NCBI RefSeq assembly: GCF_004136635.1
Contig: NZ_NOIU01000003.1
Span: 248,001-312,000 of the forward strand
Origin: Rothia halotolerans
Lineage (GTDB): Bacteria > Actinomycetota > Actinomycetes > Actinomycetales > Micrococcaceae
DNA: 64,000 nucleotides
Direction of reading: 5' to 3'
Every line of letters begins with the position of its first letter. Position 1 is the stretch's first letter. The translations under genes were made by a program, and so were the position numbers. The notes under the pieces were generated by a model. The model was given only the letters and a program-made list of their open reading frames with translations, did not search any database and was not told where the DNA came from. Shown here one piece after another: positions 5,217 to 31,178 of the stretch.

Positions 5217-7139
5217 TCAACCGGACGCGGCCTGGAGCTCCGACTTGGCCTGCCCCACGGCGTCGGCCACCGTGCGCGCGTACAGCTCCTGGCCCGCCGG
5301 CTGCGGGTGCACGCCGTCGGAGACCAGCAGGTCCGGGCGTCCGTCGCTGGCGGCCGCCCAGTCGGCCAGCACGAGGCGGTCGGAGCCGCCGACGGCGTCC
5401 CGCACGGCCGCGTTCGAGGCCCCGACCCACGCCAGGGAAGGGGGAGCCTGCCCCGTGACCAGCACGACCTGGCGCATCCGGCCGTCCTCGGCGACGTCGA
5501 GGAGCCGGTCGATCTGCTCCCGCGTCATCTCGGAGTTGGTGGACAGGGAGACGACCACGATCCGGCCGAGCCGACCGGCGTCGCGGCGCCGCTCGAGCGC
5601 CTCCAGACCCGCCGGCACGTCGCGGGAGACCTCGGCGTCGACCGTCGCCCCGGGCAGCGCCGCCTCCAGCGCCGGGGCGGCGGCGAGCGTCACCGAGTCG
5701 CCGACCACGGTCACGTCCTCGCCGCCGGGCGAGGGGACGTAGGCCTCAGGGCCTTCCGCCGGGGAGCCGTCCCCGGCCGGCGGCTCCGAGGAGGCCCCGC
5801 CCCCGCCGCCCCGGGCGACCGACTCCGCGCCCTCGGCCACCACGCGCTGGGCCTCCGTCATCGACGGCGCGTTGACCCACGCCGCCGCGGTCCCGGCGAT
5901 CCCCAGCAGCCCCGCCGTCAGCGCGAGGGCCGTCGCCGCCTGGCATCGCCCGGGCCGGCGCAGGCCGCCCAGCAGATCCGCCAGCGCCCCGCCGAACCCG
6001 CGCCGCCGCACGGGGTTCTCGACCCAGCGGTACGAGGCCGCGGCGACGGCCACGGTCACCGCCAGCACCAGGACGCCGCGCACCGCAGGAGCCGCCCCCG
6101 GCATCGCGTAGTGCGCGAGCGCCCACAGGGGCCAGTGCCACAGGTAGATCCCGTAGGAGCGGGCACCGACCCACGCCAGCGGCCGGATCGAGAGCAGCCT
6201 CCGCAGTCCCTCGGCCCCGATGCCGCGCACGTCCGGCAGCAGGCACTGGATGACCCCCAGGGCCAGCAGCGAGGCCGCGAGCAGCCCCCACGGGAAGAGG
6301 ATCCGGGGCTGCGCCTCGGAGAGCAGCAGCGCGGCCGGGACGAGCAGCGCGAGGCTGAGCCATCCCAGCAGGATCCGTCCCGCGTTGGCCGCCCCGGGGC
6401 GGTTCGGCAGGGCCGCCTCGGAGGACGGCGGGTACATGCTCCACGGGATGCTCAGCGCCAGCGCGGCTCCCAGCATGAGGCCGAAGGCGTGGGTGTCCAG
6501 GCCGTAGTAGACCCGGGTCGCGTCGCCGGTGGCCCAGAGGACCACGGCCATCGCCAGGATGGAGGCTGCGGCCAGCGCGGCCGGCACGCGCCGGCGCCCC
6601 CGCCAGGTGACCACCAGCATGCAGGTCAGGACGAGGACCACAGGCCACAGGAGGTAGAACTGCTCCTCCACCGCGATCGACCAGAAGTTGGTGAACAGCT
6701 CCGGCGAGGTCTGCCGGAAGTAGTCGTGCTCCGAGGCGATGCCGGTCCAGTTGGTGGTGTAGGTCAGGGCGGAGAGGATCTGCCGCGGCATCCCGGCGAG
6801 CGCGTCCCCGCCGAGCAGCGCGGCCAGCCCCGCGCAGGCGGCCACGCACACGAGCATGGCCGGCACGAGCCGCCGCAGCCGCCGCATCCAGAACTGGGGC
6901 AGGCGCATCCGATCGGTGTAGGCCGCCTCGCGCAGCAGCAGCGCGGTGATCAGGTAGCCGGAGATGACGAAGAAGACGTCGACGCCGATCAGCCCGCCCG
7001 GCAGGCCCCCCGGCCACAGGTGGAAGAGCACGACGCCGGCCACGGCCAGCGCCCGCAGGCCGTCCAGCCCGCGCAGCCTGAAGCGTGGGTCGCCGTCGTG
7101 CGGGGCGACGGCGCTGCTGAAGGGGGTGGGACTGGGCAT
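5217..7139 (-). CDS. Membrane acyltransferase 3 fused to SGNH hydrolase-like domain (OafA/YrhL type)
   Basis: Predicted O-acyltransferase of 640 aa that would move acyl groups across the membrane onto an extracellular sugar polymer. The N-terminal acyltransferase-3 domain has about ten hydrophobic helices and the conserved Arg-x10-His, with His40 in VVLFH. A Gly/Pro-rich linker (about 440-475) leads to an SGNH domain with GDS (Ser482), Asn534 in LSTN, and Asp608-x2-His611, so the esterase-type triad looks intact. ATG 7139 is preferred because it has GAGGAA upstream; longer frames add an Arg-rich, non-membrane segment. It stands alone between pepR and dapB. Acceptors could be peptidoglycan, teichoic acid or capsule; the sequence does not say. 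Confidence 0.85.
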   Translation of the reverse strand: MPSPTPFSSAVAPHDGDPRFRLRGLDGLRALAVAGVVLFHLWPGGLPGGLIGVDVFFVISGYLITALLLREAAYTDRMRLPQFWMRRLRRLVPAMLVCVAACAGLAALLGGDALAGMPRQILSALTYTTNWTGIASEHDYFRQTSPELFTNFWSIAVEEQFYLLWPVVLVLTCMLVVTWRGRRRVPAALAAASILAMAVVLWATGDATRVYYGLDTHAFGLMLGAALALSIPWSMYPPSSEAALPNRPGAANAGRILLGWLSLALLVPAALLLSEAQPRILFPWGLLAASLLALGVIQCLLPDVRGIGAEGLRRLLSIRPLAWVGARSYGIYLWHWPLWALAHYAMPGAAPAVRGVLVLAVTVAVAAASYRWVENPVRRRGFGGALADLLGGLRRPGRCQAATALALTAGLLGIAGTAAAWVNAPSMTEAQRVVAEGAESVARGGGGGASSEPPAGDGSPAEGPEAYVPSPGGEDVTVVGDSVTLAAAPALEAALPGATVDAEVSRDVPAGLEALERRRDAGRLGRIVVVSLSTNSEMTREQIDRLLDVAEDGRMRQVVLVTGQAPPSLAWVGASNAAVRDAVGGSDRLVLADWAAASDGRPDLLVSDGVHPQPAGQELYARTVADAVGQAKSELQAASG

Positions 7140-9711: not shown

Positions 9712-11418
9712 GTGACCCAGATCCAATACGACCTGCCCAAGCCTCCCAAGCTCGGGCGCAACACCCTCCGGGTGATCCCGCTCGGCGGGCTGGGCGAAGT
9801 GGGCCGCAACATGACGGTCTACGAGCTCAACGGCAAGCTGCTGATCGTCGACTGCGGGGTGCTCTTCCCCGAGGAGACCCAGCCCGGGGTGGACCTGATC
9901 CTCCCCGACCTGAACTACGTGCTGGACCGCCTGGACGACGTCGTCGGCATGGTGCTGACCCACGGCCACGAGGACCACATCGGGGCCGTGCCGTACCTGC
10001 TCAAGCGCCGCCCGGACATCCCCCTCATCGGCTCCCAGCTCACGCTGGCGCTGGTGGAGGCCAAGCTCCAGGAGCACCGCATCCGCAGCCGCAGCCTGGC
10101 CGTGGTGGAGGGCGACGTCGAGGACCTCGCCCCCTTCGAGTGCGAGTTCGTCGCGGTCAACCACTCCATCCCGGACGCGCTCGCGGTCTTCATCCGCACC
10201 CAGGCCGGGAACGTGCTGCACACCGGCGACTTCAAGATGGACCAGCTGCCGCTGGACGGCCGCCTGACCGACCTGCGGCACTTCGCCCGGCTGGGCGAGG
10301 AGGGCGTGGACCTGTTCCTGCCCGACTCCACCAACGCCGAGGTCCCCGGCTTCACGCCCACCGAGAAGAACATCGGCGGGGTGCTCTCCAGCGTCATGCG
10401 CGATTCGCCCAAGCGGATCATCGTGGCCTCCTTCTCCTCGCACGTGCACCGCGTGCAGCAGGTCATCGACGCCGCGGCCGAGCACGGCCGCAAGGTGGCG
10501 CTGGTGGGCCGCTCGATGGTCCGGAACATGTCCATCGCGGAGAAGCTCGGCTACCTGCAGGTGCCGAAGAACATCCTGATCGACCTCAAGAAGGTCGGCG
10601 ACTACCGCGACGATCAGGTGGTCCTGATGTGCACCGGCTCCCAGGGCGAGCCGATGGCCGCCCTGTCCCGGATGGCCTCGGGCGACCACCAGATCCAGAT
10701 CGAGCCGGACGACACGATCATCCTGGCCTCGTCCCTGATCCCCGGCAACGAGAACAGCGTCTTCCGGATCATCAACGGACTGCTGAAGCTGGGCGCCAAC
10801 GTCGTCCACAAGGGCAACGCCAAGGTCCACGTCTCCGGCCACGCCGCTGCGGGCGAGCTGCTGTACTGCTACAACATCCTCGAGCCCGGCTACGTCATGC
10901 CGGTGCACGGCGAGGTCCGGCACCTGCTGGCCAACGGCAAGCTCGCGGTGGAGACCGGCGTGCCCGAGGAGAACGTGCTGCTCGGCGAGAGCGGCATCGT
11001 CGTGGACATGAAGGACCACCAGGCGAAGATCGTGGGCGCGGTGGAGTGCGGGTACATCTACGTGGACGGCAAGTCCGTCGGCGAGATCACCGACACCGAC
11101 CTGCGGGACCGCCGGACGCTGGGCGAGGAGGGCTTCGTCTCCATCGTCACGGTCATCGACCGCCAGGCCCGGCGCGTCATCGCGGGCCCGGACATCCACA
11201 CCCGCGGCGTCGCCGAGTCCGACTCGGTCTTCTCCTCGATCATCCCCAAGATCTCCGACGCGGTCGAGGAGGCCCTGAAGGAGTCATCGGGGAAGAAGCC
11301 CACCGCTCACCAGCTGCAGCAGGTGGTGCGCCGCACCATGGGGCAGTGGGTCGGGCGCAAGCTGCGCCGCAAGCCCATGATCATCCCCGTGGTCGTGGAG
11401 TCGAAGCGCGAGAAGTAG
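9712..11418 (+). CDS. rnj: Ribonuclease J
   Basis: Metallo-beta-lactamase/beta-CASP ribonuclease combining endonuclease and 5'-3' exonuclease activity in mRNA decay and rRNA maturation; 568 aa. Zinc ligands are visible: HGHEDH at 84-89 (His84, His86, Asp88, His89), His151 in VNHSIP and Asp173 in HTGDFKMD. The beta-CASP region spans about 215-375, with a later zinc-site stretch VSGHA, and the C-terminal domain ends in a basic patch (GRKLRRKP). The start is GTG 9712 behind AAAGGGG. The dapA-rnj-ftsK order matches mycobacteria. Confidence 0.97.
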
Positions 11419-22974: not shown

Positions 22975-25848
22975 TCAGCTCAGCGCCTCGGCCAGCAGCT
23001 CCAGCACGTGGCGGTAGGGCCTGCCGGTCGCCCGCGTCATGCCGATCTCGCACGTGCGGTTGGCGGCGGCGTGGGTCTCGGATCCCAGCCCCGCCACCTC
23101 GGCGGCCTCGGCCTCGGTGGCCGAGGCGGTGAGCTCCGGATGGAGCATCCCTCGATCCCCGGCGAAGGCGCAGCAGCCCCAGGAGTCCGGCACGCGCACG
23201 TCCCCGGCGACCGCCTCGGCCACCTGCTGGACGGCTCCGTTCAGCTTCATCCGGGTGGAGGAGCAGGTCGGGTGGATCGTCACCGACCCCAGGGGCCTCG
23301 TCCCCGCGGCGGGGAGCTCGCCCGCCGCGACGAGGACCGGCAGGACCCGCTCCGCGGTGAAGGCCACGGCGTCGACCACGCGGATCGGCCGGTCCAGGCC
23401 GGCCGCGCCCTTCGTCCCCTCCGCCGAGCGGAGCATCTCGGCCAGCCCCTCGGTGCAGGAGCTGGCGTCGGAGACGACGGGCAGCCGTCCTCCCTCGGTG
23501 GCCGCCGCCAGGGCGTCGAGCACCGTGCGGCGCATCTGCGCGTACCCCTCCCGGTGGCCCTTGGACTTCCAGGGGGTGGCGCAGCACAGCGACCCGATGC
23601 CCTCCGGCGTCCTGATCCGGACGCCGGCGCGCTCGCAGAGGGCGCGGAGGGCCGGGCCCACCCCGGATCCGCCCTCGGCGGGGCCGAAGAGGGTCGCCGT
23701 GCAGCTGGGGAACCACACCGCCTCGGCCGCCGGATCCTCGACCCGGCCGCGCGGCCGCCCGCCCGCGGGGAGGTCGGCCGTATAGCGCGGGACGGTCTCC
23801 GCTCCCACGACGCCGCGGGCCAGGTCGGTGGCGAGCCGGGGCAGGGCGGGCGGCACGGCGTCGGCGGCGCTGAGGGCCAGCCCGCCGCCCCGGCTCATGC
23901 CCCGCCAGGACTTGGCCGCCGCGAGCCAGGCCTTCTCCTCCACCCGGCCGGCCTCCTCCGCCCGCAGGCGGCGCACCAGGTCCCCGGTGTTGATGAGGAC
24001 GGGGCAGGAGGTCTGGCACATGCCGTCCACCGCGCAGGTCTGCACCCCGTCATAGGCGTACTCGCGCCTGAGGGTCCGCGCCAGCTCGTGGTCCCCCTGG
24101 GCCTCGGCGCGGGCCGTCTCGCGGCGCAGGACGATCCGCTCCCGCGGCGTCAGGGTGAGGTCCTTGCTGGGGCAGACCGGCTCGCAGTATCCGCACTCGA
24201 CGCAGCGGTCGACCTCCTCCTCCACGGGCGGGGCCACCTTGAGGTCCCGGAGATGGGCGTCAGGGTCCTCGGAGAGCAGGACGCCGGGGTTGAGCAGGCG
24301 GTCCGGGTCCACGAGCCGCTTGACCCGCCGCATCACCTCGTACAGCTCGGCGCCCACCTGGCGCTCCACGAAGGGGGCCATGATGCGCCCGGTGCCGTGC
24401 TCGGCCTTCAGCGTGCCGCCCTGGGCGAGGACCAGCTCCACCATCTCCTCGGTGAACTGCGCGTAGCGGCGCAGGTGGGAGAGGTCCCGCGGGTTCGGGT
24501 CATCGCCGAACTCCTCGGTGATCATGAAGTGGATGTTGCCGTCCTTGGCGTGGCCGAAGATGACGGCGTCGGCGTATCCGTGCCGGTCGAACAGCTCGAT
24601 GAGCCGGGAGCAGGTGGCTCCCAGCCGCTCCACCGGGACGGCGATGTCCTCCAGCAGGGCCGTGGTGCCCGGCGCCCTGTTGCCGGCGACGGCCGCGAAG
24701 AGCACCTTGCGCGTATGCCACAGGGCGGCCCGCCGGGCGGGGTCGGTGGTGAACGCCGCGGCCGCGTGGAGGTCCAGCCGGGGCCAGAGCGGCTCCGCGC
24801 CGCGGAGCCGCTCCTCGAGGGTCCCTTCGTCCGCCTCCTGGAACTCGACCAGCAGGGAGCAGTGCTCTGCCACCTCCAGGGAGGAGATCTCCTCGGGGCA
24901 GTCCGGGTCCCTCTGCGTCACGCGCAGGCTCGTGGCGTCCATCAGCTCCACGGTGGCGGGGCCGCAGGCGATCAGGTCCGGGAGGCAGGCGGTCGCCGCC
25001 GCCAGATCGGGGAACACCAGCAGCGCGGTGGCGGCGCATGGCTTGATCGGGACTGTGCGGAAGACGGCCTCCGCCACGAAGGCCAGGGTGCCCTCGCTGC
25101 CGACCACGAGGTGCTCCAGGATCCTCACCGGCTCGGTGTGGTCCAGGAAGGAGTTCAGGCCGTAGCCCATCGTGTTCTTGATGGAGTGCAGCCTGCGCAG
25201 GGTCTCCACGCTCCCGGGGTCGGCGCGCAGCTCGTCGCGGATCCGGGCGAGCCCCGCGTGCAGCCGGGGCTCCGCCGCGCGCAGGCGCTCGTCGGCGTCG
25301 TCGGCCCCCGTGTCCACCACGGTGCCCGAGGGCAGGACCAGCACGGCCGACTCGAGGGTCCGGTAGGTGTTCGCCTTGATGCCGCAGGCCATGCCGGAGG
25401 AGTTGTTGGCCACCACGCCGCCGACGGTGCACGCGATCTCGCTGGCGGGGTCGGGTCCCAGCTTGGTGCCGTGCCGCAGCAGGCGGGCGTTGACCGCGCG
25501 CACCACGGCGCCGGGGCCGCAGCGGACGCGGGCGCCATCGTCGAGGACCTCGATGCTGCGGAAGGCCTTGCGGGTGTCGAGCAGGACGGCGTCGGTGACG
25601 CTCTGCCCGGAGAGGCTGGTGCCGCCGGAGCGGAAGGTGACGGTGAAGCCCTGCCGCCGTGCCGCTGCGAGCAGAGCGCCGACCTCCTCGGCGCTGGTCG
25701 GCGTCGCGACGGCCTGCGGGGTGAGCAGGTAGTGCGAGGCGTCGTGGGCGGAGGCCAGCCGGTCCACCGCGCGGACGCCGACGTCCTCGACGACGGCGCG
25801 CAGCGCCTCGACCAGCCCCTCCTCGACCTCTGGCAGCAGTGCGCTCAT
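22975..25848 (-). CDS. FAD- and Fe-S-containing D-2-hydroxyacid (D-lactate type) dehydrogenase
   Basis: Large 957-aa membrane-associated-type flavoprotein resembling quinone-linked D-lactate and D-2-hydroxyglutarate dehydrogenases. Domains in order: FAD-binding PCMH fold (about 40-220, with FRSGGTSLSGQS and GGVVANNSSGM), FAD-oxidase C-terminal domain (about 225-500, with IFGHAKDGNIHF), then ferredoxin motifs Cys549-x2-Cys552-x2-Cys555-x3-Cys559 and Cys605-x5-Cys611-x3-Cys615. Two cysteine-rich CCG modules follow (CCATPWKSKG; CCAFAGDRG). All expected ligands look intact. ATG 25848 has GGAGGAG upstream. It is the last gene of the minus-strand operon, 41 bp after the GMC gene. The physiological substrate is unknown. 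Confidence 0.88.
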   Translation of the reverse strand: MSALLPEVEEGLVEALRAVVEDVGVRAVDRLASAHDASHYLLTPQAVATPTSAEEVGALLAAARRQGFTVTFRSGGTSLSGQSVTDAVLLDTRKAFRSIEVLDDGARVRCGPGAVVRAVNARLLRHGTKLGPDPASEIACTVGGVVANNSSGMACGIKANTYRTLESAVLVLPSGTVVDTGADDADERLRAAEPRLHAGLARIRDELRADPGSVETLRRLHSIKNTMGYGLNSFLDHTEPVRILEHLVVGSEGTLAFVAEAVFRTVPIKPCAATALLVFPDLAAATACLPDLIACGPATVELMDATSLRVTQRDPDCPEEISSLEVAEHCSLLVEFQEADEGTLEERLRGAEPLWPRLDLHAAAAFTTDPARRAALWHTRKVLFAAVAGNRAPGTTALLEDIAVPVERLGATCSRLIELFDRHGYADAVIFGHAKDGNIHFMITEEFGDDPNPRDLSHLRRYAQFTEEMVELVLAQGGTLKAEHGTGRIMAPFVERQVGAELYEVMRRVKRLVDPDRLLNPGVLLSEDPDAHLRDLKVAPPVEEEVDRCVECGYCEPVCPSKDLTLTPRERIVLRRETARAEAQGDHELARTLRREYAYDGVQTCAVDGMCQTSCPVLINTGDLVRRLRAEEAGRVEEKAWLAAAKSWRGMSRGGGLALSAADAVPPALPRLATDLARGVVGAETVPRYTADLPAGGRPRGRVEDPAAEAVWFPSCTATLFGPAEGGSGVGPALRALCERAGVRIRTPEGIGSLCCATPWKSKGHREGYAQMRRTVLDALAAATEGGRLPVVSDASSCTEGLAEMLRSAEGTKGAAGLDRPIRVVDAVAFTAERVLPVLVAAGELPAAGTRPLGSVTIHPTCSSTRMKLNGAVQQVAEAVAGDVRVPDSWGCCAFAGDRGMLHPELTASATEAEAAEVAGLGSETHAAANRTCEIGMTRATGRPYRHVLELLAEALS

Positions 25849-25889
25849 CTTCTCCTCCTCGAGCTGATGCGGTCGGCTTCCTCCCGATA

Positions 25890-27500
25890 CTAGAGGGGCC
25901 GGGTCCCGCCGGAGCGGAGCTGATCGGCGATGTACTCGGCCTGCCGGATCGCCAGTGCGACGATCGTCAGGGTCGGGTTGGCCGCCGCTCCCGTGGTGAA
26001 GACCGAGCCGTCGGAGATGAACAGGTTCGGCACGTCGTGCGCCCGCCCCCAGCCGTCCACCACGCCGTCCTCCGGGCGCTCGCTCATCCGGGCGGTGCCC
26101 AGGTTGTGGGTCGAGGGATACGGCGGCGTCCGGTGGGTCGACGTCGCCCCCACCGCCCCGAAGACCTTCTCGCCGGAGGCGTAGCCGTGCTCGCGCATGG
26201 CGACGTCGTTGGGATGGTCGTCGAAGTGGACGTTCGGCACGGGGAGGCCGTTCTCGTCCTTCACGGTGGTGTTGAGGGAGACCCGGTTGGTCTCCTGCGG
26301 CATGTCCTCGCCGACCACCCACATGCCGGCGGTGTTGAGGTACCTGTCCAGCAGGGCGGCGAAATCCGGGCCCCAGGAGCCGGGGTCGGCGAAGGCCGCC
26401 ATGAAGGCGGGGCCCAGGGAGATCGTCTCCATGTAGTAGCCGCCGGCGAAGCCGCGGTCCGGGTCGTGGAGGGACTCGTCGGCGATCATCCCGGCCATCG
26501 TCTCCCCCCGGTACATGCGCACGGGCTTCTCGAAGTGCCCCCAGACGGTTCCGGTGGTGTGGCGCATGTAGTTCCGTCCCACCTGGCCCGAGGAGTTCGC
26601 CAGGCCCTGGGGGAAGCTGGGGGTGCCGGAGAGCAGCAGCAGCCGCGGCGTCTCCACGGAGTTCGCCGCCAGGCACACCGTCGCGGCGGCCTGCCGGTGC
26701 AGGTTCCCCTCCGAGTCCAGGTAGAGGACGGCGTCGGCGCGGCCCTCGGCGTCGTGGGTGATCTGGACGGCCTGGGACTCCGGGCGCAGGTCCAGCAGCC
26801 CCGTCGCGGCGGCGCGCGGGATCTCCCGGACCAGGGTGGACCACTTGGAGCCGTTCTTGTCGCCCTGGAAGTTGAAGCCGTCCTGGATGGAGGCCGGGCG
26901 GCCGTCGTACTCCTCGGCGTTGGTGGCGTACGGGCCCGTGGCGTAGAACCTGTAGCCGGCCCGCTCGGCGCCGGCCGCGAACACTTTGTAGTTGTTGTTG
27001 GCCGGCAGCGGCTTGCGCCCGTGGACGTGGGTGGAGCCCATCGCCTTCTCCGCGCGGTCGTAGTACGGGGCGAGCTCCTCCAGGCCGATCGGCCAGTCCA
27101 GGAGGTTGGCGCCCTCGATCCGCCCGTAGGTGGCGCGGGCCTTGAACTCGTGGGCCTTGAACCGGGGAGTGGCCCCGGACCAGTGGGTGGTGGTGCCGCC
27201 GACCGCCTTGACGATCCAGGCGGGCAGGTTGGGGAAGTCCCGCGCGATCCGCCAGGACCCGGAGGTGGTCCGCGGGTCCAGCCAGGCCATCTGGTTGAAG
27301 GCCTCCCACTCGTCGTTGACGTAGTCCTCGTGGGTCAGGTGCGGTCCCGCTTCCAGGACGACCACGGGGATGCCCCGTGCCGTGAGCTCGTAGGCGAGGG
27401 TGCCGCCGCCGGCACCGGACCCGATGATGACGACGGCCTCCTCCTCGACGGGGACGCTGTAGCCGGTGGTGCTCCGGCCGGGCCGGGTCTGCTCGGTCAT
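25890..27500 (-). CDS. GMC family oxidoreductase (gluconate/sorbose dehydrogenase-like flavoprotein)
   Basis: FAD-dependent alcohol or polyol dehydrogenase of 536 aa. The dinucleotide-binding motif GSGAGGG is at 27-33, GGTTTHWSG is the second family signature, and the C-terminal catalytic region has His465 (THNLGTARM) and Asn508 (AANPTLTIVA). It most resembles the large subunit of membrane gluconate 2-dehydrogenase-type enzymes, which matches the adjacent subunit-3-like gene. The ATG overlaps that gene's stop (ATGA), so the two are coupled. No Tat signal is visible on this chain. A cytochrome c subunit gene is missing from the cluster, so the electron acceptor is unclear. Confidence 0.88.
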   Translation of the reverse strand: MTEQTRPGRSTTGYSVPVEEEAVVIIGSGAGGGTLAYELTARGIPVVVLEAGPHLTHEDYVNDEWEAFNQMAWLDPRTTSGSWRIARDFPNLPAWIVKAVGGTTTHWSGATPRFKAHEFKARATYGRIEGANLLDWPIGLEELAPYYDRAEKAMGSTHVHGRKPLPANNNYKVFAAGAERAGYRFYATGPYATNAEEYDGRPASIQDGFNFQGDKNGSKWSTLVREIPRAAATGLLDLRPESQAVQITHDAEGRADAVLYLDSEGNLHRQAAATVCLAANSVETPRLLLLSGTPSFPQGLANSSGQVGRNYMRHTTGTVWGHFEKPVRMYRGETMAGMIADESLHDPDRGFAGGYYMETISLGPAFMAAFADPGSWGPDFAALLDRYLNTAGMWVVGEDMPQETNRVSLNTTVKDENGLPVPNVHFDDHPNDVAMREHGYASGEKVFGAVGATSTHRTPPYPSTHNLGTARMSERPEDGVVDGWGRAHDVPNLFISDGSVFTTGAAANPTLTIVALAIRQAEYIADQLRSGGTRPL

Positions 27501-28078
27501 CACTTCTTCACCTCCTCCATGTCGGAGGCTGTCGCCCCGGGCTGGTTCACCGAGTCCGCGGGCGGGGTCGGGCCGCCCGGGGGCAGCGGAGCCGCGCCGG
27601 CGGCGATCTCCGGAAGCACGGCGTCGGGCGGGAACTCGATCCGGGGCTCCGGCAGCCAATCCAGGTCGTCGAACCCGCGGTGGAGGTAGCCGCCCTGATC
27701 GAAGGAGGCGCCCTCGTAGCCCAGCGCCTCCCAGACCTCGGCGTCGTCGTAGAGGTTCAGGACGGCGGTGCGGCGAACGAAGCCGAAGAACTCGGTGCCC
27801 CCCACGCGGCGCAGGGTCCGCAGCGCGGCGTCGTCGTCCAGGGCGCGGAAGTCCCCTCCCGCGAGCTGGTTGAGCGAGAGCAGGCCCTGGGACAGGGCGA
27901 CGCGGAACCAGGTCTCGGCCTCGGCCTCGGTGAGGATCCGGTCGGCGGTGCGCTCGTAGGGGCCGTCGGGCACGCAGGTGTGCGGGAAGGCGACGCGGAG
28001 GACGCGGATGAGCGTCTCGCGGGCCTCGTCGGTCATCTGGACGGCGTTGAGCGAGGGGTACTTGGCGGGGAACACCAT
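27500..28078 (-). CDS. Gluconate 2-dehydrogenase subunit 3 family protein
   Basis: Small partner subunit of 192 aa for the GMC flavoprotein encoded immediately after it. The family region covers about residues 10-130 (TLIRVLRVAFPHTCVPDG, LTEAEAETWFRVALSQG, FFGFVRRTAVLNLYDD). The C-terminal 45 residues are Pro/Ala-rich. Many homologues are exported through a Tat signal, but none is visible here, so the complex is probably cytoplasmic. ATG 28078 follows AAGGAG. It is the first gene of the minus-strand operon and faces the IclR regulator across 241 bp. Confidence 0.82.
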   Translation of the reverse strand: MVFPAKYPSLNAVQMTDEARETLIRVLRVAFPHTCVPDGPYERTADRILTEAEAETWFRVALSQGLLSLNQLAGGDFRALDDDAALRTLRRVGGTEFFGFVRRTAVLNLYDDAEVWEALGYEGASFDQGGYLHRGFDDLDWLPEPRIEFPPDAVLPEIAAGAAPLPPGGPTPPADSVNQPGATASDMEEVKK

Positions 28079-28226
28079 GGTGGCTCTCCTTCGGCTGATC
28101 TCCATCGATCTGACGGGCGACGACGACGTGCAGGGTGCCGCGGGCGCTCCTGCGGGGCGCCCGGGGCCGACATACGCCGTGGAACCGCCTTCCCGTGTGG
28201 ACACGAGGCTATGTGACCTGGGATAC

Positions 28227-28240
28227 ACCGATCCATCGGT
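28227..28240. promoter_or_regulatory. Candidate IclR operator
   Basis: ACCGAT-CC-ATCGGT is a perfect inverted repeat in the divergent region between the redox operon and the IclR gene. A TATTCT box overlaps its right edge (28240-28245) in the direction of the IclR gene, and TAGCCT on the opposite strand (28206-28211) could serve the redox operon. Operator assignment is inference. Confidence 0.45.
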
Positions 28241-28319
28241 ATTCTCGTGAGATGAGAACCGAGGCCGGGCGGGGCGTGGGGAGCCGAGCGGTTCGAGGAC
28301 GAGGTCGAGGAGGCCCGGC

Positions 28320-29072
28320 ATGGCGCAGATCGCAGTGGTGCAGCGGACGTTCGCCGTCCTGGAGGCGGTGGCCGCCTCGGGCAGCGCGAGCGCGAAGGAG
28401 GTGGCGGGCCGCCTGGAGATCCCCCTGCCCAGCGTCTACCGGCTCCTGCAGGAGCTCGTGGTCGCCGGCTATCTGGTGCACCTCAGGGAGCAGGGGAGCT
28501 TCGAGCTCGGGCCGAAGTGCTTCGACCTCGGCCTCTCCTTCCGTCAGAGGGTCATCGCGCCGCAGTCCATCCGCCACGCCGCGGACCAGGTGCACCGCGC
28601 CCTCGGGGCCGCCGCGTACTTCGCCGTCTACCGGGGCGAGGACATCGTGCTCACCTACCTGTCCGACTGCGAGAAGCACCCGCGGCTGCGCCCGCTGCGC
28701 TTCGGCTTCCACGAGGCGGCGCACGCGACGGCCTTCGGCAAGATCCTGCTGGCCGGCATGGAGCAGGAGCAGCGGGAGGTCTACCTCCGCGCTCGCGGGA
28801 CGCCTCGGCTCACGCCGCAGACCCTGGTGGACTCCGCCGGCATCGAAGCCCATCTGGACGAGGTGGCCGCGCGGGGCATCGCCTGGGAGCACGAGGAGTT
28901 CCTGCCCGGCCAGACCTGCGCGGCCGTGCCCGTCCGCAACGGCACGGGCATGGCGGTGGCGGCCATCGCGATGAGCATCCGCACCCCCGACGCCGCCCAC
29001 CGGCACCGGCAGATCGAGACCGTGCTGAGGGAGCACGCCGGACGCTGCTCGCGCTACCTGCGCATGGGCTGA
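28320..29072 (+). CDS. IclR family transcriptional regulator
   Basis: Predicted 250-aa regulator with a winged helix at about 5-65 (VVQRTFAVLEAVAASG, PLPSVYRLLQELVVAGYLV) and the IclR effector-binding domain at about 75-245 (HATAFGKILLAG is the family hallmark). IclR members usually sense small carboxylates or aromatic acids. ATG 28320 follows AGGAGG. Divergent from the gluconate-dehydrogenase-like operon and upstream of the SDR gene, so it most likely controls both. Its last 32 bases are nearly duplicated 61 bp downstream. Confidence 0.92.
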   Translation: MAQIAVVQRTFAVLEAVAASGSASAKEVAGRLEIPLPSVYRLLQELVVAGYLVHLREQGSFELGPKCFDLGLSFRQRVIAPQSIRHAADQVHRALGAAAYFAVYRGEDIVLTYLSDCEKHPRLRPLRFGFHEAAHATAFGKILLAGMEQEQREVYLRARGTPRLTPQTLVDSAGIEAHLDEVAARGIAWEHEEFLPGQTCAAVPVRNGTGMAVAAIAMSIRTPDAAHRHRQIETVLREHAGRCSRYLRMG

Positions 29073-29136
29073 GCCGGCGAGGCAGCGGCTGGGTCGCCGC
29101 CTCGGCCGCTCGTGCTATCCGCGCATGGGCTGAGCC
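29044..29136 (+). repeat. 32-bp near-duplicate of the IclR gene end
   Basis: Copy one (29044-29075) includes the IclR stop codon; copy two (29105-29136) is non-coding. They match at 28 of 32 positions and all four differences are transitions. The arrangement suggests an old tandem duplication between the regulator and the SDR gene. Confidence 0.65.
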
Positions 29137-29256
29137 CGAGCCGCTCGAAGGCGGCGCGGGGGCCGTTCTCGCCCCATGAGAAGGGGCGTTCCGCAACCGC
29201 CGGGCACCTGCCCACACTGGTGTCCCACTGCTTCAAGGACGAAGAGGAGCCTCACC

Positions 29257-30042
29257 ATGAGCAGCACGCAGACAGTCGCCGTCGTCACCGGCGCGGCGCG
29301 AGGGATCGGCAGGGGGATCGCCGAGCGCCTGGGCGCCGACGGCCATCACGTCGTCGCCGCGGACCTTCCCCACATGGCCGCCGGCACGACGGAGACGGTG
29401 GAGGGCATCCGGAGGGCCGGCGGGACGGCGACCGCCGCGGAGGCGGACGTGACCGACGAGGAATCCACCGGGGCGCTCGTCCAGGCGGCGGTCGCGGCGG
29501 GAGGGCGGCTGGACGTCTTCGTCGCCAACGCGGGGATCGCGCAGGTGGAGGCCCTCGTGGACTACTCGAAGGCGGACTTCGAGCGGATCCTCAACGTCAA
29601 CGTCACCGGCCTCTTCCTCTCCTACCGGGCGGCGGCGCGGCAGATGATCGCCCAGGGCGGCGGCGGCAAGATCATCGGGGCCGCCTCCATCGTGGCCTTC
29701 CGGCCCTTCGCCCTGCTCTCGCCGTACTCCGCCACCAAGTGGGCGGTGCGGGGCCTGACGCAGGGCGCCGCGATGGAGTGGGCCGAGCACGGGATCACGG
29801 TCAACGCCTACGGCCCCGGCATCGTCGGCACCGCGATGTGGGACCTGATCGACGAGAAGCTCGCCGCCGAGGAGGGCCTGGAGAAGGGACAGGCGCTGAA
29901 GAAGTACTCGCAGGACATCCTCCTGGGCCGCGTCTCCGTGCCCGAGGACGTCGCGAGCCTGGTCTCGTACCTGGCCGGCCCGGACTCGGACTACGTCACG
30001 GGCCAGACCATGCTCGTCGACGGCGGCATGCAGTTCTCGTGA
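29257..30042 (+). CDS. SDR family oxidoreductase, acetoin/2,3-butanediol dehydrogenase-like
   Basis: Classical short-chain dehydrogenase of 261 aa. Cofactor motif TGAARGIG is at 11-18; the catalytic residues Ser144, Tyr157 and Lys161 are in place. The C-terminal half (ITVNAYGPGIVGTAMW, PDSDYVTGQTMLVDGGM) is strikingly like meso-2,3-butanediol dehydrogenase/acetoin reductase. The ATG at 29257 follows GAGGAG and is preferred over an upstream frame extension lacking homology. Placed after the IclR gene and before a small monooxygenase; it may act on a ketose or hydroxyketone in the same pathway. Exact substrate uncertain. Confidence 0.85.
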   Translation: MSSTQTVAVVTGAARGIGRGIAERLGADGHHVVAADLPHMAAGTTETVEGIRRAGGTATAAEADVTDEESTGALVQAAVAAGGRLDVFVANAGIAQVEALVDYSKADFERILNVNVTGLFLSYRAAARQMIAQGGGGKIIGAASIVAFRPFALLSPYSATKWAVRGLTQGAAMEWAEHGITVNAYGPGIVGTAMWDLIDEKLAAEEGLEKGQALKKYSQDILLGRVSVPEDVASLVSYLAGPDSDYVTGQTMLVDGGMQFS

Positions 30043-30109
30043 CCCGCCGCCCCGGCCGCGCGGTTCCCGTCTCCGCCCACCCAGCACCTGATTCTCAAGG
30101 AGCAGAGCC

Positions 30110-30439
30110 ATGATCCTGATCGTCGTGAAGTTCCCCGTCAGACCCGAGAAGGCCGAGCAGTGGCCCGCCATCGTGAAGGACTTCACCGAAGCGACGCGGG
30201 CGGAGCCCGGCAACAAATGGTTCGAATGGTCCAGGAGCCTGGAGGACCCCCACGAGTTCGTCCTGGTGGAGGCCTTCGACGACGACGCCGCCGGGCCGCA
30301 CGTCGAATCCGAGCACTTCCGCCAGGCGACCTCCGCCGACGGCGAGATGCGCCGGGCCCTCACCGCGACGCCGAAGATCATCTCACGGCAGGTGGAGGGC
30401 GAGGGCTGGGACGAGATGGGGGAGATGAAGGTCGGCTGA
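30110..30439 (+). CDS. Antibiotic biosynthesis monooxygenase (ABM) domain protein
   Basis: Small dimeric ferredoxin-like-fold protein of 109 aa, similar to YgiN-type putative quinol monooxygenases. It begins MILIVVKFPVRPEK, has the ABM core NKWFEWSRSLEDPHEFVLVEAF, and the His of SEHF matches the conserved C-terminal helix. ATG 30110 follows AAGGAG. It is 67 bp downstream of the SDR gene and likely in the same transcript. The role could be quinone redox cycling or detoxification of a pathway intermediate; this is a guess from family and context. Confidence 0.8.
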   Translation: MILIVVKFPVRPEKAEQWPAIVKDFTEATRAEPGNKWFEWSRSLEDPHEFVLVEAFDDDAAGPHVESEHFRQATSADGEMRRALTATPKIISRQVEGEGWDEMGEMKVG

Positions 30440-30572: not shown

Positions 30573-31178
30573 CTAGTCCGCGCGGAGGACCCAGAGGATC
30601 CGGAACCCCTTCGACGTCGTCAGGCGCGCCACGGAGAAACCCTCGCCCAGCGCCGTCCCCAACCACGCCGCGAGCGAGTCGGAGCCCAGGTTCTTCTGCA
30701 CCACCAGATAGGCGGCGCCGCCCGGGCTCAGCCGCGGCAGCCAGGTCAGCAGGATCTCGTGCAGGACCTCCTTGCCGACGCGGATCGGCGGATTGGACCA
30801 GATCGTGTCGAACCTCAGCTCGGGGTCCACGTCCTCCGGCAGCCGCGCCGCGACGTTCCCCAGCCCCAGCTTCTCGGCGTTCATCTCCGTCAGGGCCAGG
30901 CTGCGCTCGTTGACGTCGACGCCGAGCACCTCCGCCCCGGGGTTCTGCAGCGCCATCGCGAGGCTCAGCGGCCCCCACCCGCAGCCGACGTCGAGCATCC
31001 GGCTCCCGCGCGCGGCGGGGACCTCCTTCAGCAGCACGGCGGTGCCCTTGTCGAGCCCCTTCGGGCTGAAGATGCCCGGCGCGGTGAGGACCTCGCGGGT
31101 CGCCCCGGCCAGGTCGACGCTCAGCGGCCGCGGCGTGAAGTCGCGGCCGGTCTGCGAGGAGAAGTAGTGCTCGGCCAT
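30573..31178 (-). CDS. RsmC-like class I SAM-dependent methyltransferase
   Basis: 201-aa enzyme of the MTS (methyltransferase small) family. SAM-binding motif I is LDVGCGWGP (62-70), and the catalytic SNPPIRVG (128-135) marks exocyclic-amine N-methylation as in 16S rRNA G1207 methyltransferase RsmC. The N-terminal half-domain of E. coli RsmC is absent, as is usual in actinobacteria. The start is ATG 31178, divergent from hflX. Confidence 0.88.
   Translation of the reverse strand: MAEHYFSSQTGRDFTPRPLSVDLAGATREVLTAPGIFSPKGLDKGTAVLLKEVPAARGSRMLDVGCGWGPLSLAMALQNPGAEVLGVDVNERSLALTEMNAEKLGLGNVAARLPEDVDPELRFDTIWSNPPIRVGKEVLHEILLTWLPRLSPGGAAYLVVQKNLGSDSLAAWLGTALGEGFSVARLTTSKGFRILWVLRAD

Follow-up and report, generated by a model that had tools for sequence, protein, structure and literature searches.

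A conserved actinobacterial GMC dehydrogenase island probably serving the oxidation of 1,2-propanediol and acetol

Introduction

Which carbon source would draw on a GMC flavoprotein, a fused FAD/Fe-S 2-hydroxyacid dehydrogenase and a short-chain dehydrogenase/reductase (SDR) encoded side by side? The question is raised by an island of six genes in a 64-kb stretch of DNA (hereafter the window) from a Rothia-group genome of 3.04 Mb. Its genes form two divergent groups: the small subunit, GMC and FAD/Fe-S genes on the minus strand, and those for an IclR-family regulator, the SDR and an ABM-fold protein on the plus strand (Table 1). The original prediction, made from this DNA, had reported such a set at positions 22975-30439 and had taken it for a system oxidizing a polyol or aldonate; all six frames are indeed open at or near the coordinates claimed.

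The island is a real and conserved catabolic one, whose operons are apparently co-regulated. We propose that it is probably a regulon for the use of a C3 vicinal diol and/or hydroxyketone as carbon source, 1,2-propanediol and acetol being the most likely ones. The gene set, its linkage, its insertion, its homology to a genetically characterized acetol enzyme and the palindrome common to both operons were computed directly. The proposal assigns a substrate, a pathway and a regulatory code, all open to testing, to a gene set that matches general oxidoreductase families only, and that is widespread in actinobacteria (Brevibacterium, Arthrobacter, Nesterenkonia, Microbacteriaceae and others).

A GMC enzyme related to the acetol-linked Msil_1641

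The GMC protein of the window is 62% identical over 510 amino acids to Msil_1641 of Methylocella silvestris, whose deletion mutant is reported to build up acetol and to lose growth on 2-propanol and acetone (PMC7364539). We located Msil_1641 through the knockout primers printed in that source: the first of them occurs in one of the 397 family genomes drawn, where, on a contig of 4,305,430 bases, the inner two primers bracket a single GMC open frame with the outer two on either side. A conserved His/Asn region is visible in the GMC alignment, and 81 of 397 genomes drawn from one alphaproteobacterial order encode a GMC at an E-value of 1e-150 or better. Upstream of Msil_1641 lie genes for a small protein, a VOC protein, a cytochrome, an RHH protein and a sigma-54-type regulator, followed by propane monooxygenase genes. 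Monooxygenase clusters of the propane/acetone type adjoin the VOC-small-GMC arrangement in three genomes (M. silvestris, Azospirillum B510 and G139); none of the six genes of our island encodes an acetone/propane monooxygenase.

The small protein directly precedes the GMC gene in 90 of 94 loci and retains conserved core residues across 43 sequences, which is how we recognize it as the subunit of the GMC enzyme. Its counterpart upstream of Msil_1641 is 27.5% identical to that of the window and 31% to the Neorhizobium one. The window's small protein is the one island protein that stays below family cut-off in a Pfam scan which places the other five, and at the limits used it matches no Pfam or NCBIfam family, PF13618 included. 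A profile of the small subunit searched against the PDB returned a single match at chance level (E 0.65). In a scan of two alphaproteobacterial homologues, a weak match to Gluconate_2-dh3 (PF13618; E 0.0038, 18.0 bits, cut-off 23.4) was obtained for one, and a match to the model for a twin-arginine translocation (Tat) signal for the other. The earlier remark that the window's small subunit lacks a Tat signal is borne out: the Tat model does not match it, and by eye its arginines are not followed by a hydrophobic stretch. Taken alone, the negative model result counts for little, since the Pfam Tat model overlooks the Tat-like N-terminus of the Neorhizobium protein as well.

These observations bear on the reading first given to the island, namely that of a gluconate dehydrogenase-type complex oxidizing a sugar acid or polyol. 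The layout of a GMC protein with a small protein suits it, as do the annotation of one Neorhizobium relative as '2-keto-gluconate dehydrogenase' and the fact that the solved chains nearest to the window's GMC belong to glucose and fructose dehydrogenases (E-values around 1e-48 to 1e-45). However, the window's small protein shows no match to the Gluconate_2-dh3 model, the island provides neither a cytochrome gene nor a Tat match, and the close relatives adjoin genes for glyoxalase-like proteins, D-lactate dehydrogenase and propane monooxygenase instead. With the GMC protein this close to an acetol-linked enzyme, we set the polyol or aldonate substrate aside and hold a gluconate dehydrogenase-type complex to be very unlikely, the least probable of the alternatives weighed here.

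Alphaproteobacterial relatives and the likely product

A GMC tree of 114 rows (quick method, midpoint root; L006, L098-L127, L148, L149 and the duplicate L150 left out; no gluconate dehydrogenase sequences included) sets the group of Msil_1641 (23 rows, support 85) beside a mainly actinobacterial group (88 rows, support 87). Nested in the latter are nine alphaproteobacterial proteins, with a support of 98 of their own and 74-78% identity to the window's GMC (L001, L002, L003, L061, L066, L070, L072, L076 and L085, three of them on plasmids). A gene for a lactoylglutathione-lyase-like VOC protein is present in all nine loci, detected by clustering in eight and by tblastn in L061; the D-lactate dehydrogenase Dld accompanies it in five. 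The Dld representative scores 818.7 bits against a D-lactate dehydrogenase cut-off of 391, and the VOC representative lies below every glyoxalase cut-off (124.1 versus 165 bits).

The simplest reading of these two neighbors is that the GMC enzyme yields methylglyoxal and that D-lactate is the acid formed at the end, in which case the VOC protein would carry out the step from methylglyoxal to lactate in the alphaproteobacterial loci. Judged by the tree, the GMC gene appears to have moved across phyla, from actinobacteria to alphaproteobacteria, with the recipients using enzymes of their own for these two subsequent steps.

Linkage of the gene set across genomes

A scan of species genomes confirmed 170 GMC stretches, of which the best 80 (GMC 72-97% identical to the window's) were kept; adding the window and five plasmid loci (L001-L005) gives 86 loci, L006-L013 having been dropped from an initial 94 as own or kin copies or distant homologues. 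By our own gene calling and clustering, these loci contain an IclR gene in 63 cases, ABM in 45, a Zn-dependent alcohol dehydrogenase (ADH) in 29, SDR in 25, FAD/Fe-S in 21, PEBP in 14, GldA in 11, an HpaI-like gene in 11, VOC in 10 and Dld in five. The full set of six occurs in seven of them: the window, L014, L021, L024, L026, L028 and L029, the holders besides the window being Rothia santali, two Nesterenkonia and three Brevibacterium. Thus the genes are not scattered in relatives, and the six-gene set put forward in the original prediction recurs as such. The FAD/Fe-S gene is accompanied by ABM in 21 of 21 loci, while SDR never occurs together with GldA, nor VOC with ABM, in any of the 86. 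As a separate observation, a YbhB/YbcL-type PEBP gene stands directly after GMC in L040 (9630-10163) and 13 further loci, never with ABM.

In actinobacteria, then, the GMC gene keeps company with the FAD/Fe-S dehydrogenase, diol-type dehydrogenases (SDR or GldA), IclR and ABM. Its partner dehydrogenases, namely SDR, GldA and a Zn enzyme resembling secondary ADHs (nearest solved chain 1h2b, then Rhodococcus ADH-A), all come from families acting on secondary alcohols or vicinal diols. The SDR of the window scores 291.7 bits with TIGR02415, just below the cut-off of 304.35, and its nearest solved relatives are the L-2,3-butanediol dehydrogenase 3a28 and the diacetyl reductase 3wye, with the acetoin reductase 1geg also found.

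The GldA-like partner raises the alternative of glycerol or dihydroxyacetone as the substrate, whereby SDR or GldA would yield dihydroxyacetone, the GMC enzyme hydroxymethylglyoxal, and the FAD/Fe-S enzyme would act on a glycerate-like acid. The GldA representative clears the glycerol dehydrogenase cut-off (500.9 versus 336 bits), a MIP channel gene adjoins GldA in L063, and Dak1/Dak2 adjoin the set in L036. Yet the same GldA representative also fits a 1,2-propanediol/glycerol dehydrogenase model, below its cut-off (415.5 versus 700), the partner in five alphaproteobacterial loci is Dld, and the phenotype of Msil_1641 concerns acetol. On balance, we consider a glycerol-based route unlikely.

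The FAD/Fe-S protein has the FAD_binding_4, FAD-oxidase_C and 4Fe-4S layout of FAD/Fe-S D-lactate dehydrogenase, fused here in one gene, and its alignments show GHxxDGNxH-like and EHG motifs. Its nearest solved chain is the D-lactate dehydrogenase LDHD (8jdc, E 1.9e-28), followed by a glycolate oxidase (9qgz, 1.9e-22); with other models it stays below cut-off, as with GlcD (176.2 versus 567.9 bits) and YdiJ (155.2 versus 1350 bits). A C2 route, in which ethylene glycol or glycolaldehyde would pass through glyoxal, glycolate and glyoxylate with this GlcD-GlcF-like protein as glycolate oxidase, could draw on its sub-threshold matches to the GlcD and GlcF models, on BhcR as the best NCBIfam match of the IclR protein (below cut-off) and on the match of the GldA representative to a glycolaldehyde reductase model (446.5 bits, below the cut-off of 550). 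It is nevertheless improbable in our judgment: the glycolate oxidase comes only second to D-lactate dehydrogenase among the solved relatives of the FAD domain, the alphaproteobacterial version of the locus has the D-lactate dehydrogenase Dld, and the acetol phenotype of Msil_1641 also speaks against it.

A palindrome in front of both operons

Comparison of 21 spacers between the small subunit and IclR genes brought out the palindrome TTCTCR-N5-YGAGAA. In the window it occurs twice, once in front of each operon, as against 0.00 occurrences in 100 shuffles; genome-wide there are seven copies of the looser form TTCTC-N7-GAGAA, and only the two island copies have the strict form. We counted the palindrome in 81 core loci totalling 1.33 Mb, with the five plasmid loci L001-L005 left out and the window represented by 25 kb. 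There are 46 strict sites in 32 of these loci, 43 of them within 400 bases before an island-type gene; for one-mismatch sites the corresponding figure is 68 of 75, and 64 of the 81 loci have at least one site of either kind. None of six control palindromes, scrambled but of identical composition, has a site in the 81 loci. Allowing one mismatch at most, 27 sites fall within the 300 bases upstream of ABM and 20 within the 300 bases upstream of SDR. Ten sites have no island-type gene nearby, some of which, e.g., in L015, may be start-calling errors. The strict form is absent from the six alphaproteobacterial core loci, all of which are without an IclR gene.

The palindrome thus appears to mark one regulon covering both operons, and we infer that the IclR protein is what binds it. 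The suggestion in the original prediction that the set oxidizes one compound stepwise gains from this apparent co-regulation, the same element standing before both operons.

Some sites have other neighbors. In L063, a MIP (aquaglyceroporin-like) gene at 5407-6165 shares a palindrome with an ADH-small-GMC operon beside GldA; it is the sole transporter-type gene identified next to a palindrome site. The contig is labelled Verrucomicrobia and its GMC groups with actinobacterial ones, so that it is perhaps mis-binned or transferred. In L045, a strict palindrome at 11233-11249 lies between IclR and a DsbD/thioredoxin-like gene.

The proposed pathway

Briefly, we advance the following mechanism. The SDR would oxidize the C3 diol, 1,2-propanediol, to acetol with NAD(P); acetol would next be converted to methylglyoxal, probably in the cytosol, by the GMC enzyme and its small subunit. 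Methylglyoxal would then be rearranged to D-lactate, which the FAD/Fe-S enzyme would oxidize to pyruvate with transfer of electrons to the respiratory chain. The IclR regulator would control both operons through TTCTCR-N5-YGAGAA. We infer the substrate, the direction, the location, the electron acceptors and the enzyme for the methylglyoxal-to-lactate step. As to location, the window's enzyme has neither Tat signal nor cytochrome, unlike the proteobacterial forms seen with either, and is therefore expected to be cytosolic; menaquinone, oxygen and some unlinked protein are candidates for its electron acceptor.

Several points weigh against this pathway. The evidence on Msil_1641 is a mutant phenotype rather than an enzyme assay, and 62% identity within the versatile GMC family leaves the substrate unfixed. 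A tblastn search with the Azospirillum hydroxylase found no match to the monooxygenase in 80 core loci, taken with about 8 kb on each side (the window lay outside this search). The FAD/Fe-S protein reaches no equivalog cut-off among the models for glycolate, 2-hydroxyglutarate and other 2-hydroxyacid dehydrogenases, and its R. koreensis homologue (58%) sits elsewhere in that genome. No glyoxalase I of the VOC type is among the six genes, nine PF00903 (VOC) proteins elsewhere in the genome are candidates for the methylglyoxal-to-lactate step, and 28 of the 86 loci are without ABM, VOC or PfpI in the stretch examined, some of these ending at contig ends. The counts of co-occurrence and exclusion track lineages and are not independent.

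The strict palindrome, for its part, was written down after the sites had been seen and was counted in partly the same loci, so the count is not a blind test; stronger support comes from the scrambled controls and from sites before ADH, GldA and ABM genes in loci other than those of the 21 spacers compared. Five further looser palindromes are found in the genome (C3:504619, C4:180667, C4:484610, C4:712310 and C6:204535). Finally, an HpaI/GarL-like aldolase gene follows GMC in the same direction in 11 Brevibacterium loci (e.g., L018:10598-11356), the dihydroxyacetone kinase genes Dak1/Dak2 adjoin the set in Cryobacterium Y57 (Y29 being alike by eye), and in Microbacteriaceae and R. koreensis GMC is followed by the PEBP gene counted above. 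With such neighbors, dihydroxyacetone or another compound is still a possible substrate.

From methylglyoxal to D-lactate

Under the acetol pathway, the island calls for an enzyme that makes D-lactate from methylglyoxal, and the candidate within it is the ABM protein. Its profile finds the dicarbonyl isomerase LsrG (2gff and 3qmq; E 3e-7 and 1e-6) behind four uncharacterized ABM-type chains, and the ArqI structure 8ecx weakly (E 0.0067). We rejected its assignment as an LsrG isomerase equivalog (NF007791, 19.5 versus 135 bits); it belongs to the ABM domain family alone. The candidacy arises because VOC or DJ-1/PfpI genes are linked to the set elsewhere and ABM here, and because ABM genes have the same palindrome upstream and are present in all the FAD/Fe-S loci. 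In two Microbacterium loci without ABM, a DJ-1/PfpI gene is divergent from small-GMC across the palindrome (L064:6672-7235 and L080:6632-7195), its proteins scoring 146.8 and 145.4 bits with TIGR01382 (cut-off 139.05); PfpI of Pseudomonas aeruginosa, of the same family, has been reported as a methylglyoxalase (PMC11987610). In L057, a metallo-hydrolase that is weakly GloB-like (63.5 bits, cut-off 200.8) lies across a one-mismatch palindrome.

We therefore raise, tentatively and with considerable doubt, the possibility that the ABM protein represents a new methylglyoxalase family, a small isomerase that would convert methylglyoxal, free or as a thiol adduct, to D-lactate in place of glyoxalase I. 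A probe for mycothiol synthesis in the window's genome gave an MshA-like best match of 313.4 bits against a cut-off of 462.5. The ABM protein bears on the partly open question of which enzymes make D-lactate from methylglyoxal in glutathione-free bacteria.

Gene layout and insertion site

The small subunit and GMC genes have base 27500 in common. As previously stated, the six genes include no transporter or cytochrome subunit; no mobile-element gene is among them either, no wider search for one having been made. The original prediction had the island interrupting a core block between dapF and hflX. An interruption it is, of the order dapF-methyltransferase-hflX; the right neighbor, however, is the methyltransferase gene, and hflX comes only after it.

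Table 1. Genes and proposed operators of the island, with its right-hand neighbor, by position in the window.
Feature	Position	Strand	Size and basis
Fused FAD (GlcD-like)/4Fe-4S (GlcF-like) 2-hydroxyacid dehydrogenase, proposed D-lactate dehydrogenase	22975..25848	-	957 aa; FAD_binding_4, FAD-oxidase_C, Fer4_8
GMC flavoprotein, proposed acetol dehydrogenase large subunit	25890..27500	-	536 aa; GMC_oxred_N/C, identity to Msil_1641, tree
Small subunit of GMC enzyme	27500..28078	-	192 aa (201 aa from alternative start 28105); linkage and conserved core
Palindrome TTCTCGTGAGATGAGAA, proposed operator	28242..28258	.	Between the small subunit/GMC/FAD/Fe-S operon and iclR
IclR-family regulator	28320..29072	+	250 aa; HTH_IclR, IclR_C
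Palindrome TTCTCGCCCCATGAGAA, proposed operator	29166..29182	.	75 bases before SDR-ABM
SDR of the acetoin/2,3-butanediol dehydrogenase group, proposed 1,2-propanediol (vicinal diol) dehydrogenase	29257..30042	+	261 aa; TIGR02415, nearest solved chains
ABM-fold protein, candidate methylglyoxal-to-lactate enzyme	30110..30439	+	109 aa; PF03992, 67.2 bits
Methyltransferase, right neighbor of the island, then hflX	30573-31178	-	Corrects the earlier placement

The insertion site was compared in 15 of 34 other genomes of the genus. The island is present in one of them (G024); the remaining 14 have dapF immediately ahead of methyltransferase-hflX, with a gap between alignment ends of 18-149 bases in 12 genomes and of about 630 and 800 bases in two (L173 and L174). 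Three genomes with the empty site (G003, G006 and G022) have the GMC gene elsewhere. The same island occupies the corresponding position in R. santali, with a GMC 97% identical to the window's, and a GMC of at least 80% identity is present in five of 35 genomes of the genus, the window's own included. A recent insertion of odd composition is not indicated: the G+C fraction is 0.718-0.726 in three 2-kb steps wholly inside the island, as against 0.68-0.77 over the window.

Comparison with known systems

Individual pieces of this scheme have parallels in other bacteria. The ABM protein may be compared with ArqI of P. aeruginosa, an LsrG-like ABM protein co-operonic with the glyoxalase gene gloA2 and induced by a 2-oxoaldehyde (PMC12274486). 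ArqI differs in its reported signaling role (PqsA), and its reported small influence on glyoxal resistance speaks against a general glyoxalase role of ABM proteins. Among actinobacteria, Corynebacterium glutamicum is described as converting methylglyoxal to D-lactate and on to pyruvate. There it is a side route in 1,2-propanediol producers, and the cited parts of that source mention no GMC island; they state that the glyoxalase-like enzyme for methylglyoxal to D-lactate is unidentified, and cite a mycothiol-dependent glyoxalase I from Streptomyces coelicolor (PMC10893638). Conversion of acetol to methylglyoxal has also been proposed in an actinobacterium, for acetone degradation by Actinomycetospora, whereas the enzymes proposed there are the monooxygenase Mim, the alcohol dehydrogenase Adh1 and aldehyde dehydrogenases rather than a GMC set (PMC7176365).

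The closer parallels are with methanotrophs. In Methylacidiphilum IT6 and SolV, a cluster reported to be up-regulated on C3 compounds combines GMC large and small subunits with Fe-S and FAD lactate dehydrogenase genes, and such verrucomicrobial clusters of GMC, glyoxalase I and Fe-S/FAD lactate dehydrogenase have been assigned the same pathway (PMC8630023, PMC12235487). By the published description, on which this likeness rests, they differ in having Fe-S and FAD in two genes, a lactoylglutathione lyase, a PEP synthase, PmoCAB3 and a proposed Tat export. M. silvestris shares the GMC protein and the small protein directly upstream of it, and acetol to methylglyoxal is the reaction proposed for Msil_1641 (PMC7364539). 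It alone has the VOC glyoxalase, c-type cytochrome, RHH, sigma-54 regulator and monooxygenase genes nearby, none of which is among the window's six, whereas the window alone has the FAD/Fe-S enzyme, SDR, ABM and IclR.

Hence, the idea of an undescribed pathway survives in part. The chemistry has already been proposed for methanotrophs (PMC7364539, PMC8630023); the gene set we did not find described in actinobacteria, the open-licence PMC literature having yielded no publication on it. The core chemistry is thus known from methanotrophs, and the actinobacterial form, which is without a linked glyoxalase I, Tat signal or cytochrome, adds to it a palindrome of its own, diol dehydrogenases and the ABM protein.

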